DNA of 61,420 nucleotides from Tannerellaceae bacterium (GTDB lineage: Bacteria; Bacteroidota; Bacteroidia; Bacteroidales; Tannerellaceae): positions 1-61,420 of the forward strand of contig JAJPZJ010000074.1 in assembly GCA_021204405.1 (NCBI GenBank). Direction: 5' to 3'. How positions within the stretch are numbered: the stretch's first letter is position 1; every line of letters starts with the position of its first letter. The translations under genes and the position numbers were made by a program. The notes under the pieces were generated by a model. It saw nothing but the letters and a program-made list of their open reading frames with translations. It did not search any database and had not been told where the DNA came from. Of this stretch, positions 24,559 through 34,027 are shown in pieces.

Positions 24559-24589
24559 TTTGCAGAAATCAAAAAGTTCTTTACCTTTG
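24559..24589 (+). promoter_or_regulatory. Consensus promoter of the tRNA cluster
   Basis: TTTG (24559-24562), a 19-base spacer and TACCTTTG (24582-24589) match the Bacteroidetes -33/-7 consensus exactly. The first tRNA begins 21 bases downstream. Confidence 0.75.
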
Positions 24590-24609: not shown

Positions 24610-24682
24610 GCGAAAGTAGCTCAGTTGGTAGAGCATAACCTTGCCAAGGTTAGGGTCGCGGGTTCGAATCCCGTCTTTCGCT
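24610..24682 (+). tRNA. tRNA-Gly (GCC)
   Basis: A complete 73-nt cloverleaf. Acceptor stem GCGAAAG/CTTTCGC, D stem GCTC/GAGC, anticodon stem TAACC/GGTTA with loop TTGCCAA (anticodon GCC), T arm with TTCGAAT loop, discriminator T. CCA is not encoded. It is first of three tRNA genes behind a consensus promoter. The sequence GAGCATAACCTTG and its downstream partner CAAGGTTAGGGTC form an imperfect palindrome relevant to the third gene. Confidence 0.96.
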
Positions 24683-24701
24683 CATTCTTTAGAGAAAGGA
24701 T

Positions 24702-24785
24702 GCTCGAATGGTGGAATGGTAGACACGAAGGACTTAAAATCCTTTGGCTATTGCAGCTGTGCGGGTTCAAGTCCCGCTTCGAGTA
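24702..24785 (+). tRNA. tRNA-Leu (TAA)
   Basis: A complete 84-nt class II tRNA with acceptor stem GCTCGAA/TTCGAGT (one G-T pair), anticodon loop CTTAAAA (anticodon TAA), a variable arm (TGGCTATTGCAGCTG) and T loop TTCAAGT, discriminator A. It lies 19 nt after tRNA-Gly and 12 nt before the third gene. Confidence 0.95.
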
Positions 24786-24797
24786 CACAACTACTTC

Positions 24798-24870
24798 GCG
24801 GAAGTAGCTCAGTTGGTAGACCCTAACCTTGGCAAGGTTAGGGTCGCGGGTTTGAGTTCCGTCTTCCGCT
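24798..24870 (+). tRNA. Degenerate tRNA-Gly copy with a GGC anticodon (probable pseudo-tRNA)
   Basis: A 73-nt relative of the first gene, with an intact acceptor stem (GCGGAAG/CTTCCGC). Bases 24819-24845 form a perfect palindrome (GACCCTAACCTTG, G, CAAGGTTAGGGTC). Compared with the intact gene this changes three bases: one pair of the D stem is broken (GAGC to GACC), base 26 is C, and the loop reads TTGGCAA, so the anticodon is GGC (Ala) instead of GCC. The conserved C of the TTC loop is T (TTTGAGT) and a T-stem C is also T. Gly identity of the acceptor with an Ala anticodon and a damaged core make it non-functional or mistranslating. The three changes fit one template-switch event. Confidence 0.8.
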
Positions 24871-24892
24871 CATCTACTGAAGAAAAAATTAA

Positions 24893-24922
24893 AAAGCCGT
24901 TTTAGCTAGCTAAAACGGCTTT
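24893..24922 (+). terminator. Terminator of the tRNA cluster
   Basis: A perfect 15-bp palindrome (AAAGCCGTTTTAGCT and its complement) starts 23 bp after the last tRNA and is followed by TTACTTTTT. The right half shares TAAAACGGCTTT with the hairpin at 36205-36266. Confidence 0.85.
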
Positions 24923-25120: not shown

Positions 25121-28708
<3,588 letters not shown>

Positions 28709-28834: not shown

Positions 28835-30547
28835 TCAATAACCGGGGTTTTGTCCGTTTTTCCAGCCATCGGGGCCACCGTCCTGTTTCCTGATCTCGCT
28901 ATTCCTGTCGAGTGCAGCCTGAGGAACCGGCATATAATACATTTTAGGCAGGAACAGGCGGTTACGGATCTCTACAATATTATAATTTAAGGTACCATCG
29001 GGATTTTCAGAAATTTCCATTCCACGCAGGGGCCGGTTCATTACCCCTGGATTACCGTCGGGCATGGTTTCGGCTATTTTCCACCGGAGGATATCCCACC
29101 ACCGTTTGTCTTCAAAGCTCAATTCTACGCGTCTTTCACGGCGGATAATCTCCCGCATTTTGTCTTTGGTAACAGTACCATACGATTCTTCGACAGAGGG
29201 TAAGTTGCCTGAGCGGGTCCGTACCCTGTTGACTGCATTTAATACCTCCTGCGTTGGTCCGTTGACTTCGTTTTCGGCTTCGGCATAGCTTAGCAGCGCT
29301 TCGGCAAAGCGGAAAAGGATATAATTCTGATAAGACTTCTGGTCAAAATAAGCAGACGGGTCTTTATCTTCATTTAACCGTTTGCGGGCATAATAACCGG
29401 TATGGGTATTGTCACTGGAGTATCCTTTATTGATTTCATTGTTTCCACCAATACGGGTTTGTATGATTTCTGCGTGGAAAGTAGAGTTGTCGTAAATGAT
29501 GGTCTGGTAGAACCTTTTTTCCCGTCCGGCATACGGATTGGCAGGATCATATCCGGAGCCCTCTTCAAAGATTGTTTTTCCATTTGCCATAGAGAATTCG
29601 TCAACTAAATCCTGGGTCGGTTGGAAATTACCCCAGCCGCCACGCATATCGCCTACCCGTGCCGGACCGACACGTCCCTCTGTGGAGTGACCTTTATTGG
29701 GGCCATACTGACGGGCAAAGATGGTTTCCTCGTTGTTATTTTGAAGGAACAAAGTCGGGAAGTCTTCCACGAGGTCGTAAACGTTGAGGTCGATAAGTGC
29801 TTTATTTGTTTTAGCTGCCGCTTTCCAACGCTCTGTATCGTTAGCCGGGTTTCGTAATTCACTGGCATGGAACAGTTCACACCATCCCTTTAAAGCCAGT
29901 ACGGCTCCTTTCGTTGCCCTTCCATAATCATCACCGGATACTTCCAGGGGCAGGTCATTATAGATAGCGTCGAGTTCATCTACTATAAACTGAAATGTTT
30001 CCGCTGCCGTTGACCGGGGATATTCGAGTTGCATATCCGGTATCAGGTTATTTTGTGGCACCGTGATGATCGGAACGCCACCGAAACTCATCCATAAGAT
30101 ATGATAGAAATAAGCCCAGATAAAACGTGCTTCAGCTATACGTAATGTTTTATAATCATCTGGTAATTCCGATTCACTTACTCTCTGGATAAATATATTA
30201 GGTTTACGGATACGTGTATACAGATTTTCCCAATCCCAGAAACGGCTTGGGTAAGATTCCGGGGCGATCTGTGCCTGCCCGATGTATCTGTACCCTTCAT
30301 GCCTCAGTACGCCTATATCGGAATTGTCACTTAACTGATCCATGTGTTGCTCCAGGTCGTCCTGGTCTGCGGTTTTCAGGTTATCATATATATCATTCAG
30401 AAACAGGTCTGCATTGTTGGTAGATTTCCATATTTCTTCATCCGACATAAAGTCTTTCGGTGGAACTTCCAGAAAGTCGGAACAACCGGTAAACAGGAGT
30501 ATGCTATAGAGTATACCGAATAGGAATGTATGTTTCATAGTTTTCAT
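28835..30547 (-). CDS. SusD/RagB glycan-binding lipoprotein (PUL A)
   Basis: A 570-residue SusD-family lipoprotein (signal peptide with lipobox LLFTGC, Cys 22). It has the typical start DFLEVPPKDFMSDEEIWKS, tetratricopeptide-like helices in the N-terminal half (EARFIWAYFYHILWMSFGGVP) and the family C-terminus (RNRLFLPKMYYMPVPQAALD). SusD caps the SusC channel and binds glycan. It sits 16 bp after susC. The frame is intact although its SusC partner carries five lesions, so the protein can no longer form its usual complex in this locus. The substrate cannot be read; a galactoside is possible from the adjoining GH2. Confidence 0.93.
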   Translation of the reverse strand: MKTMKHTFLFGILYSILLFTGCSDFLEVPPKDFMSDEEIWKSTNNADLFLNDIYDNLKTADQDDLEQHMDQLSDNSDIGVLRHEGYRYIGQAQIAPESYPSRFWDWENLYTRIRKPNIFIQRVSESELPDDYKTLRIAEARFIWAYFYHILWMSFGGVPIITVPQNNLIPDMQLEYPRSTAAETFQFIVDELDAIYNDLPLEVSGDDYGRATKGAVLALKGWCELFHASELRNPANDTERWKAAAKTNKALIDLNVYDLVEDFPTLFLQNNNEETIFARQYGPNKGHSTEGRVGPARVGDMRGGWGNFQPTQDLVDEFSMANGKTIFEEGSGYDPANPYAGREKRFYQTIIYDNSTFHAEIIQTRIGGNNEINKGYSSDNTHTGYYARKRLNEDKDPSAYFDQKSYQNYILFRFAEALLSYAEAENEVNGPTQEVLNAVNRVRTRSGNLPSVEESYGTVTKDKMREIIRRERRVELSFEDKRWWDILRWKIAETMPDGNPGVMNRPLRGMEISENPDGTLNYNIVEIRNRLFLPKMYYMPVPQAALDRNSEIRKQDGGPDGWKNGQNPGY

Positions 30548-30562
30548 ATTGTTATTAGATTA

Positions 30563-33500
30563 TTAAAATGTTACATTGAGACCGAAGGAGTATACGGATT
30601 GCTGGAAGTAATAATTTCCGTTGCTGTCGCCAGCCTCCGGATCAATTTTTTCTTTCATTTTGGGGGTCCAGGTCAATAGGTTCTGTCCGGCAAAATAGAT
30701 CCGCACTTTACTCATCGCAGCTTTTTCCGTCCACTGACGGGGTAATGTATATCCGAATTCAATATTTTTCAGACGCAAATAAGAAGAATTCTTTACCCAG
30801 TGCGACGAGTTAACCGTGTTGTGGCTCTGGGGCTGTACGGTTACCCGGGGATAACGGGCGTTGGTATTTTCCGGTGTCCAGTGATCCTTGTATACCAGTT
30901 TGGTGGCCGAACTGAGATTTTCGAACGGGTTAACCATGATACCCCATATATACATGATACCCCATATATAAGAGTCGTAAAGAGCGGCTCCCTGCCATAG
31001 GGTACTGAAATCAAAACCTTTCCAGGTGATCGTCGGAACAAAACCGAACATCAGTTGCGGATTATTTTTCGGACGGCCAATTACAGTTTCATCATGTGCG
31101 TCGATAATGCCATCCGGTACTCCGTTGGGGCCACTTAAATCTCTGTATTTAATATCACCCGGGGCTACATTGGCATCCGGAATAGAGGCTATTCCTTCTT
31201 TCAGGTTGCCATTGGCATCAAAATCATCTGCTGTAAAATAACCGATCGCTTTATATCCGAAATAGGAATCCAGCGGCCTGCCTGTTTTCCTCCGGTTAGG
31301 ATTGTCGTAAGTTGCCGAGGTTTCATATATTTCCTTCAATTTATTTTGGCAAATGTCATTGTTCCCCGCAGGTCAATGTTCCAGTCTTTATGGATATTGA
31401 AATTGCTACCTAAGGCAAGTTCCACCCCCTGGTTACTCATTTTTCCTCCGTTGACCTGTGAAAGCCCTATACCATATTCAAGCGGAACCTCAGTTTTCGG
31501 CTCTACCAACATATTGTCCCGGTTTTCATAAAAATAATCGGCTGTGAGGGCTAATAAGCCATTCCATAATAAAGCATCAAAACCGACATTAAACTTTTTT
31601 GCCCTTTCCCAGGTAATTTCCGGATTCCCTTGTTTGCGTTCCCGGATACCGGTGGTGGCATCCCCGAAATAAGTAGAACCACTATATATTTCGTAGCCTG
31701 TCAGGTACTGATAAGCACTACCGGCCAGATTCCCGGATTCCCCGTAAGAGCCTCTCACCTTTAACTGGTTTAAGTAAGGGGCATTCTTTTTAATGATCTC
31801 TTCTTCCGCCATATTCCATGCCAGTGAGAAAGAGGGGAAAAAGGCCCATTTACTTCCGGGGGCGAAATAATAGTTTCCGTCGTAGCGGCCGGAAACCTCT
31901 GCCATGTATTTACCGTCATAGGTATAGCCTAAGCGGTATACGAAACCTACCTGTGTGGCTCTGGATGAAGTACCTTCATTGGTTACCTGCCCGGCGGCGT
32001 TACCTCCGAAGTTTATTTCATCGATCTCTACCGGGAAATTGGTCCGTCCCAGCTTGTTGGAATTTTTTTCACTTCCGACCGTTCGGCCACTCCTAATACA
32101 GATATATCATGTAGCCCGAAGGTATTTTTATACATAATATATCCCTGGTAGGTAAACCGTTTCTGATATTCGTTTTCTTCTGTCAACGAAGGTGAAGAGC
32201 CTTTATAGGATTCAATGAAAGTAATCGGATCTGTGGAATAATCGGGCAGGTAAGACAGGGTCGGCAGGCTCCAGTATTTGTAAAATTTAAACCGGGGGTC
32301 GTAACTGAATACACCTTTGACACTTAATCCTTTCAGGAAGGTTAATTGTTGTTCTACTTCCAGTGTGGTATAGATCTGGCTGATATCATTTTTCCTGTAG
32401 CCACTGGTTTTCAGGGCTCCTACCGGTGAGTTAACCAGGTATTCCCCCCAAAGGCCATTGGAAAAGTGGATGGCATTAATGGGTGGCGTACGGGTCGTAA
32501 AATAGGAGAGGTTGAAGGTAGATTCTCCCGGGTGGTGCTGGTCTTCCACATAGCCTGCCAATGATAAAGAGATATTGGTTGTTTTGGTGGCTGCTACATT
32601 TAGGCGTGACTGGAGGTTATATCGTTTCAGATCGATCGTCTCGAATTGCGATTTCTGGTTCATATAGGCCAGGGATATATAATATTTTACGGCCTCCGTA
32701 CCACCTGAAACATCGATACTATGGTTGGTAATCGGTTGATTGTACTTAATGATATCCCGTAGTCCGCGGCTGTTGGGCCAACGGTCGGCATGTGCTCCAC
32801 CGGCACCATCCACTGTTTTCTTGTAGTTGGCAATCTCCTCGTCGGAAAATGGCATATTGGTGAGTCCGCTATTCCGGGCAGCTTCATTCATCAACATGGT
32901 GTATTCATAGGAGTTCACCTATTCCGGCATACGGGTAGGATTCTGGAAACCGATATACCCATTGTAAGAAATAGTCGCTTTGCCCGTTTTTCCTTTTTTT
33001 GTGGTAACCAGGATCACTCCGTTCGCACCAGCTAGTCCGTAAGGAGCTACCGCTGCAGCATCTTTCAATATCGTAATACTTTCAATACTGTTAGGATCTA
33101 ACCGGGAATAGTTTTCGCGGGGAATCCCGTCTACCACAACCAGTGCTTTAGATTCTCCCATCGTGCCACGTCCCCTGATGTAAATATCAGAACCGTCGGA
33201 ATCAGGCTCTCCGCTACTTTGACGGGCAATAACCCCTGACACACGCCCGGCCAATGTATTGGATATATTAGCTACCGGGTTCCGGGCCACCTCATCTCCT
33301 TTCATATTGGAAATAGCGGAAGTAAGGGAAGATTTTTTCTGTACACCATATCCAACCACGACTACTTCATCCAATACCTGATTATCTTCTGAAATAACGA
33401 TAGATAAATTATCGCCTGCTTTCGCACGGACTGTTTGGGGCTCATAGCCGATGTAAGTTATTTCGAGTTGGATCTCATTCTGACTTACATTAAATGAAAA

Positions 33501-34027
33501 GTTTCCGTCTATATCGGTAAGTGTACCGTTTAGGGTTCCTTTTTCAATTACATTTGCTCCGATAACAGGTTCTCCCGTATTGTCTCTGATAGTACCTGCT
33601 ATAATCCGGTTAGTAGCTTGTTGGGGGGGGAGCTGGTACAGAGGCAGCAGGAGCATTGGCTTCCGTATCTTTTTTTTAAAACGGTGATTTGCCGGTCGGA
33701 GATTCTATAAGTAATATCTGTTCCTTCGAACAGTTGATCCAGTATTTTGTCGACCGGTTGATCTTTTACGCGGACAGATACACTACGGTTGGTATCGAGT
33801 ACATCATTCAGGTAAAAGAAAATAAATTCACTGTTTTTCTCAATCATATTAATTACATTCCCCACAGTCTCGTTTTTCAATTCAAGGCTAAAGGAAGTTT
33901 CCTGAGAATAGGTATTTGCCGCGAAACAGGCACCTGTGAACAAGAATAGCAAAAGAAAAATGGCTTTCATAATTCGCAAAAGTCTACTTTGCCTGGTGTT
34001 TACACCAGACATCTTAATAATTTTCAT
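30563..34027 (-). pseudogene. SusC-type TonB-dependent transporter (PUL A), five lesions
   Basis: An 1154-residue SusC with an extra N-terminal STN domain (SLELKNETVGNVINMIEKNS), which marks control by an ECF sigma/FecR pair. The carboxypeptidase-like domain (GTIRDNTGEPVIGANV), TonB box, plug (DEVVVVGYGVQKK) and barrel follow. Lesions: +1 in the eight-base T run 33670-33677, +1 in the eight-base G run 33623-33630, TAG at 32919-32921 (probably Trp), -1 in 32063-32069 and -1 in 31344-31347. The signs sum to zero, so start and end are in phase, but the pieces are not. An 18-bp in-frame duplication repeats YIWGIM. The protein cannot be made in full. Confidence 0.92.
30935..30970. repeat. 18-bp exact tandem duplication in SusC A
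   Basis: Units 30935-30952 and 30953-30970 are identical and in frame, giving YIWGIMYIWGIM in a barrel strand. Confidence 0.92.

Follow-up and report, generated by a model that had tools for sequence, protein, structure and literature searches.

The tRNA cluster

The window analysed here is an entire contig of 61,420 bases, part of a draft genome of 3.45 Mb in 184 contigs. A cluster of three tRNA genes occupies positions 24610-24871: tRNA-Gly(GCC), tRNA-Leu(UAA) and a third member, identified by ARAGORN as tRNA-Ala(GGC) (Table 1). With Rfam the third tRNA scores 49.8 bits compared to 73.3 for the first, and two of its columns are flagged as non-standard. These two columns are the two sides of a single D-stem mismatch, C11:C24.

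The Bacteroidetes -7 element has the consensus TAnnTTTG. A sequence of this kind precedes the first tRNA, and a similar one, TACCTTTGCA, lies upstream of the cluster in three of the relatives' loci. Because this putative promoter lies upstream and a terminator-like hairpin lies downstream, the three tRNA genes are probably transcribed as one RNA.

Table 1. Features of the tRNA cluster and of its third gene (window coordinates; base changes are numbered by tRNA position)
Feature	Position	Strand	Evidence or remark
TACCTTTG, -7-like element, presumed cluster promoter	24582..24589	+	20 nt upstream of first tRNA; sequence, function presumed
Intact tRNA-Gly(GCC), cluster gene 1	24610..24683	+	ARAGORN; Rfam 73.3 bits
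Intact tRNA-Leu(UAA), cluster gene 2	24702..24786	+	ARAGORN; Rfam 60.6 bits
Altered third tRNA, formerly tRNA-Gly(GCC), probable pseudogene	24798..24871	+	GGC anticodon, C11:C24, C56T, C61T; ARAGORN tRNA-Ala(ggc); Rfam 49.8 bits; Gly(GCC) orthologues; fold
Perfect palindrome	24819..24845	.	tRNA positions 22-34, 35, 36-48; sequence
Maximal target tract of the putative switch	24819..24840	+	tRNA positions 22-43; changed bases span 24821-24832
Maximal source tract, copied as reverse complement	24824..24845	-	tRNA positions 27-48
G24C	24821	+	Breaks D-stem pair 11:24; parent comparison, fold
A26C	24823	+	Permits C26-G44 pairing in extended hairpin; parent comparison, fold
C35G	24832	+	Anticodon GCC to GGC; palindrome centre inverted; parent comparison
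C56T	24853	+	T loop; base as in the family's tRNA-Gly(UCC)
C61T	24858	+	T stem, G53-U61 wobble; parent comparison
Terminator-like hairpin, 13 bp	24893..24922	+	Just 3' of third tRNA

Sequence changes in the third tRNA

Within the third tRNA, positions 24819-24845 form a perfect inverted repeat, GACCCTAACCTTG-G-CAAGGTTAGGGTC, with 13-nt arms and a 1-nt centre. The tRNA at 24610 reads GAGCATAACCTTG-C-CAAGGTTAGGGTC at the equivalent place and differs from the palindrome at arm positions 3 and 5 and at the centre. Both the palindrome and these three differences had been described in the initial annotation, and the sequence bears them out. That annotation also took the 24610 gene as its reference, which is sound for the arm differences but not for parentage. 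The 24610 copy is further unlike the parent of the third copy at positions 4, 59 and 69; the true parent is the orthologous third copy in relatives.

Compared to this parent, the third tRNA has exactly five differences. Three of them (G24C, A26C and C35G) are transversions and two (C56T and C61T) are transitions. The right arm retains the original GGGTC.

Ancestral state and distribution of the GGC form

In most relatives examined, the cluster lies downstream of argH, usually with a small lipoprotein-like gene in between. The alignment of the cluster's third tRNA across related genomes, which the initial annotation had suggested, gives a uniform picture: wherever a third tRNA is present and has been read, the syntenic copy is a tRNA-Gly(GCC) whose D stem is intact. 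The inferred parent, GCGGAAG...GAGTCCCGTCTTCCGC, is found verbatim in several genomes, and the full parental third copy in several relatives, GCGGAAGTAGCTCAGTTGGTAGAGCATAACCTTGCCAAGGTTAGGGTCGCGGGTTCGAGTCCCGTCTTCCGCTC, is five positions off the window copy. At the closest matching locus, from another genus, the contig ends inside the third copy; the part that is present has GAGC and GCC.

We scanned for the GGC form with a pattern that permitted either D-stem base and made the GGC anticodon obligatory; the family scan was slightly looser. There was no match in 84,980 species genomes and none in viral contigs. Among 393 order, 395 phylum and 125 family genomes, counts that include the window's own genome (leaving 124 other family genomes), the window's own genome was the only match. 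The species, phylum, order and family scans thus returned no relative with GGC, whether its D stem is normal or not, and a GGC form with a normal D stem in close relatives is what the initial annotation had named as evidence against its reading. A GGC variant conserved in relatives was rejected on the same scans. Since the GGC form is missing elsewhere, the state is derived and, as far as these sequences indicate, apparently unique to this genome.

The genomes scanned, which include no other member of the genus, showed no stepwise intermediates; a scan via the neighbouring lipoprotein gene found no same-genus genomes. The reciprocal event, in which the right arm is recopied from the left, was not found in the family.

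Two features of the relatives' loci concern copy number. At five of the relatives' loci the contig ends within a tRNA-Gly copy, which is why drafts often lack the third one. In one genome (G030; locus L084, about 1088-1161), a single tRNA-Gly follows argH and the lipoprotein gene in place of the Gly-Leu or Gly-Leu-Gly of relatives, reflecting either a deletion between Gly copies or a collapsed assembly.

A probable single template switch

If positions 22-43 are overwritten with the reverse complement of positions 27-48, G24C, A26C and C35G result without error. The switch tract is at most 22 nt, and the three changes themselves span 12. The ancestral imperfect inverted repeat, in which 11 of 13 arm positions are complementary, is present in the genome's own tRNA-Gly and in that of relatives. 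Each of the clustered changes is the base expected from the reverse complement of the opposite arm, as in a quasi-palindrome mutation.

To gauge how often chance would produce such a fit, we placed five random substitutions in the parent in 100,000 simulated sets and counted those in which a single reverse-complement tract, 14 nt or longer, accounts for at least three changes. Only 6, 1 and 0 of the 100,000 sets did so at transition biases of 1, 2 and 4. The earlier proposal that the three arm and centre bases were recopied from the opposite strand is supported, with one tract fitting exactly. A template switch is the most parsimonious history, given the exact fit, the derived state and the lack of GGC in the relatives scanned.

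Two other origins were considered and set aside. A plain inversion of the whole 27 bp is ruled out because the right arm, which would then read CAAGGTTATGCTC, retains GGGTC; copying would have rejoined the original template somewhere in positions 35-43. An integrase attachment site was dropped as well: two of the changed positions, 24 and 26, are on the 5' side of the anticodon loop, and no integrase is among the ORFs read immediately downstream, in the GH2/SusCD locus.

The starting point would have been a cluster with an ordinary tRNA-Gly(GCC) in third place. In that gene the anticodon arm, the 3' strand of the D stem and the variable loop would together have formed a natural quasi-palindrome centred on C35. 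In one round of replication, the polymerase may have jumped to the opposite strand and used part of the right arm as template, writing its reverse complement over the centre and onto the left arm. It would then have returned to the original template, leaving G24C, A26C and C35G changed together. An inter-strand switch, with arm homogenisation and spacer inversion, appears to fit better than a one-strand snap-back hairpin because the centre base itself is complemented and a one-strand hairpin cannot template its own loop, a preference drawn from a single base. C56T and C61T could have arisen before or after the switch, by point mutation or, in the case of C56T, perhaps by conversion. We consider it probable that the third tRNA is a tRNA-Gly pseudogene whose origin is a quasi-palindrome template switch, and that it adds an example to an established class of mutation.

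Structure and function of the altered tRNA

The changes replace the D-stem pair C11-G24 with C11:C24, and positions 22-26 are now able to pair perfectly with 44-48. In Vienna predictions, which leave out modifications and tertiary contacts, the minimum free energy structure contains an extended 12-bp hairpin at -38.1 kcal/mol, compared to -16.9 for the cloverleaf. The predicted D-stem pair probability is 0 in the mutant and 0.95 in the parent, and that of the mutant T stem is about 0.002. The template-switch changes alone suffice for the predicted loss of the D stem, and with the T-arm changes the T stem is lost too; by themselves, the two T-arm changes already weaken the predicted cloverleaf.

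Alanine identity requires G3:U70, with A73 as a further element, and glycine identity uses C35, C36 and U73 (PMC9976931). The third tRNA has G3-C70 and U73, so it lacks both G3:U70 and A73. It retains the glycine features C36, U73, G1-C72 and C2-G71, but C35 is now G. The genome's own tRNA-Ala(GGC), on contig C14, is normal and has G3:U70 and A73, and two intact tRNA-Gly(GCC) genes remain in the genome.

In view of the identity elements and the existing tRNA-Ala(GGC) gene, we rejected the third copy as a genuine tRNA-Ala, and on the predicted structure it is very unlikely to work as one. Some claims of the initial annotation need narrowing here. The anticodon did change from GCC to GGC, but the step from Gly to Ala does not extend to tRNA identity, given the missing alanine elements and a fold that is not predicted to be a cloverleaf. 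The D stem is broken as described, at C11:C24, but only this one pair is lost, and position 26 also becomes C.

The altered RNA is most likely uncharged and degraded, since it lacks the alanine identity elements and the glycine determinant C35. With its identity and fold damaged and intact Gly(GCC) and Ala(GGC) genes elsewhere, the third copy is most likely dispensable and dead. It has the marks of a pseudogene: functional orthologues, structural damage and a function covered by other copies. Such a pseudogene would be tolerated because other Gly(GCC) genes remain.

The two T-arm changes have different standings. C61T, judged against the identified parent, is private to the window copy. With C56T the customary G19-C56 contact is lost. 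In the family's tRNA-Gly(UCC), however, the normal base at position 56 is U, opposite A19, so C56T is not inactivating by itself. It may be drift or, because U56 also occurs in the family's tRNA-Gly(UCC), a short gene conversion from that gene. Later drift, the explanation first given for both C-to-T changes, is therefore plausible for C61T, but C56T may be a conversion.

The tRNA-Gly(UCC) genes themselves show a compensated change at the elbow contact: in four loci of relatives, A19 and U56 replace the usual G19-C56. A partial tRNA-Gly(UCC) in the window's own genome (locus L004, 1-50) also has U56.

Alternative explanations

The main rival is an artefact of library preparation or assembly, in which fold-back or end-repair on palindromic DNA gave chimeric reads that the assembler adopted for one tRNA copy. 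Enzymatic fragmentation is known to yield palindrome-centre and multi-nucleotide substitutions (PMC6941819), the genome is a draft in 184 contigs, and tRNA repeats break the contigs of relatives. However, such errors are infrequent and sit close to the ends of reads, whereas most reads must agree to give a contig consensus, and the locus is internal to a 61-kb contig. An artefact would also leave C56T and C61T in the same copy unexplained, and the flanking tRNAs are normal. We regard it as unlikely, if deserving of some weight. Far less probable is that the T-arm changes had first inactivated the gene and that three independent point mutations then happened to match the palindrome. The two further substitutions indicate that the copy may have been free to drift, and the T-arm changes alone weaken the predicted cloverleaf. 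Yet in the simulations no more than 6 of 100,000 five-substitution sets gave such a match when the tract had to reach 14 nt, and the three changes are all transversions and all lie on one side and the axis.

Functional recoding, a working tRNA that puts alanine or glycine at GCC/GCU alanine codons, is just as improbable as independent mutation. The GGC anticodon is perfect in an intact 7-nt loop, the acceptor stem retains the G1-C72, C2-G71, G3-C70 and U73 of tRNA-Gly, and the cluster is flanked by a promoter-like element and a terminator. But there is no G3:U70 or A73 for AlaRS, the GlyRS determinant C35 is gone, the D stem is broken with a non-cloverleaf predicted fold, a proper tRNA-Ala(GGC) is already present and the GGC form is not conserved. 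A mosaic formed by recombination between tRNA-Gly(GCC) and tRNA-Gly(UCC), with separate changes in the anticodon arm, is still harder to credit. U56 and the GCGGAAG/CTTCCGC acceptor stem are common to the family's tRNA-Gly(UCC), but there is no known donor with GACCC or GGC, and relatives' third copies already combine the GCGGAAG stem with C56. Recombination accounts for C56T only, and would add to a template switch without replacing it. We give equally little credence to a more speculative scenario in which the palindrome is prone to repeated spacer inversion, so that within the population the middle anticodon base may alternate between G (GGC) and C (GCC), and some remaining fraction of the GGC form is glycylated and misreads alanine codons. 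If true, anticodon flipping with a glycylated GGC form would be a mutation-driven source of mistranslation.

Relation to known systems

Quasipalindrome-associated template-switch mutation was reportedly described by Ripley in 1982 and, in Escherichia coli, by Lovett, Sinden and co-workers. Quasi-palindrome template switching is documented in E. coli (PMC7202029): as here, an imperfect inverted repeat with short arms and a 1-nt spacer is made perfect by arm-to-arm copying that changes several bases at once. Unlike that laboratory hotspot, the present case is a natural and apparently fixed change in a tRNA gene. In the yeast gene REG2, one arm was converted and the spacer inverted by an inter-molecular switch (Abraham and Hazkani-Covo, 2021; PMC8604942). 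The third tRNA likewise combines arm conversion with a reverse-complemented spacer in one step, but the yeast examples are protein-coding genes and here the spacer is the middle anticodon base of a bacterial tRNA. A survey of rRNA history found compensatory change with loop inversion to be extremely rare (Monttinen and Löytynoja, 2022; PMC8794818). There too a single event lengthens a perfect stem in an RNA gene; those cases are in rRNA and miRNA, whereas here, in a tRNA, the D stem is destroyed as the anticodon stem lengthens. In an open-literature search with partial coverage, we found no earlier report of a tRNA anticodon remade by a template switch.

Anticodon shifts are customarily viewed as single point mutations. 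They are rare in bacteria, with four found in 61 Enterobacteriaceae (Rogers and Griffiths-Jones, 2014; PMC3923123). Like such alloacceptor remoulding, the window has a syntenic tRNA with an anticodon unlike that of its orthologues (Gly to Ala); unlike it, the window copy has no matching shift in identity elements, looks dead and arose by what appears to be a multi-base event and not a point mutation. It offers a clean example from nature of a single replication error that would alter the anticodon and the tRNA fold together. The quasi-palindrome of tRNA genes, made up of the D-stem 3' strand, anticodon arm and variable loop, may be a site where template switching remakes or kills tRNAs. If common, such events would be a route to tRNA loss and, more rarely, to identity change.

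Neighbouring genes

A GH2 beta-galactosidase gene adjoining the cluster (25232-28402, minus strand) is broken by a single amber stop, located in the SLGNES region, and by two changes of frame. Its best-matching copies in relatives are open across about 1,200 codons; the window copy is either a decayed gene or affected by local sequence errors. The adjacent gene for a SusC-like TonB receptor (30563-33656, minus strand) is likewise in several pieces, and SusD (28835-30547) beside it is seemingly intact. We read the SusC-like/GH2 region as a decaying polysaccharide-utilisation locus.
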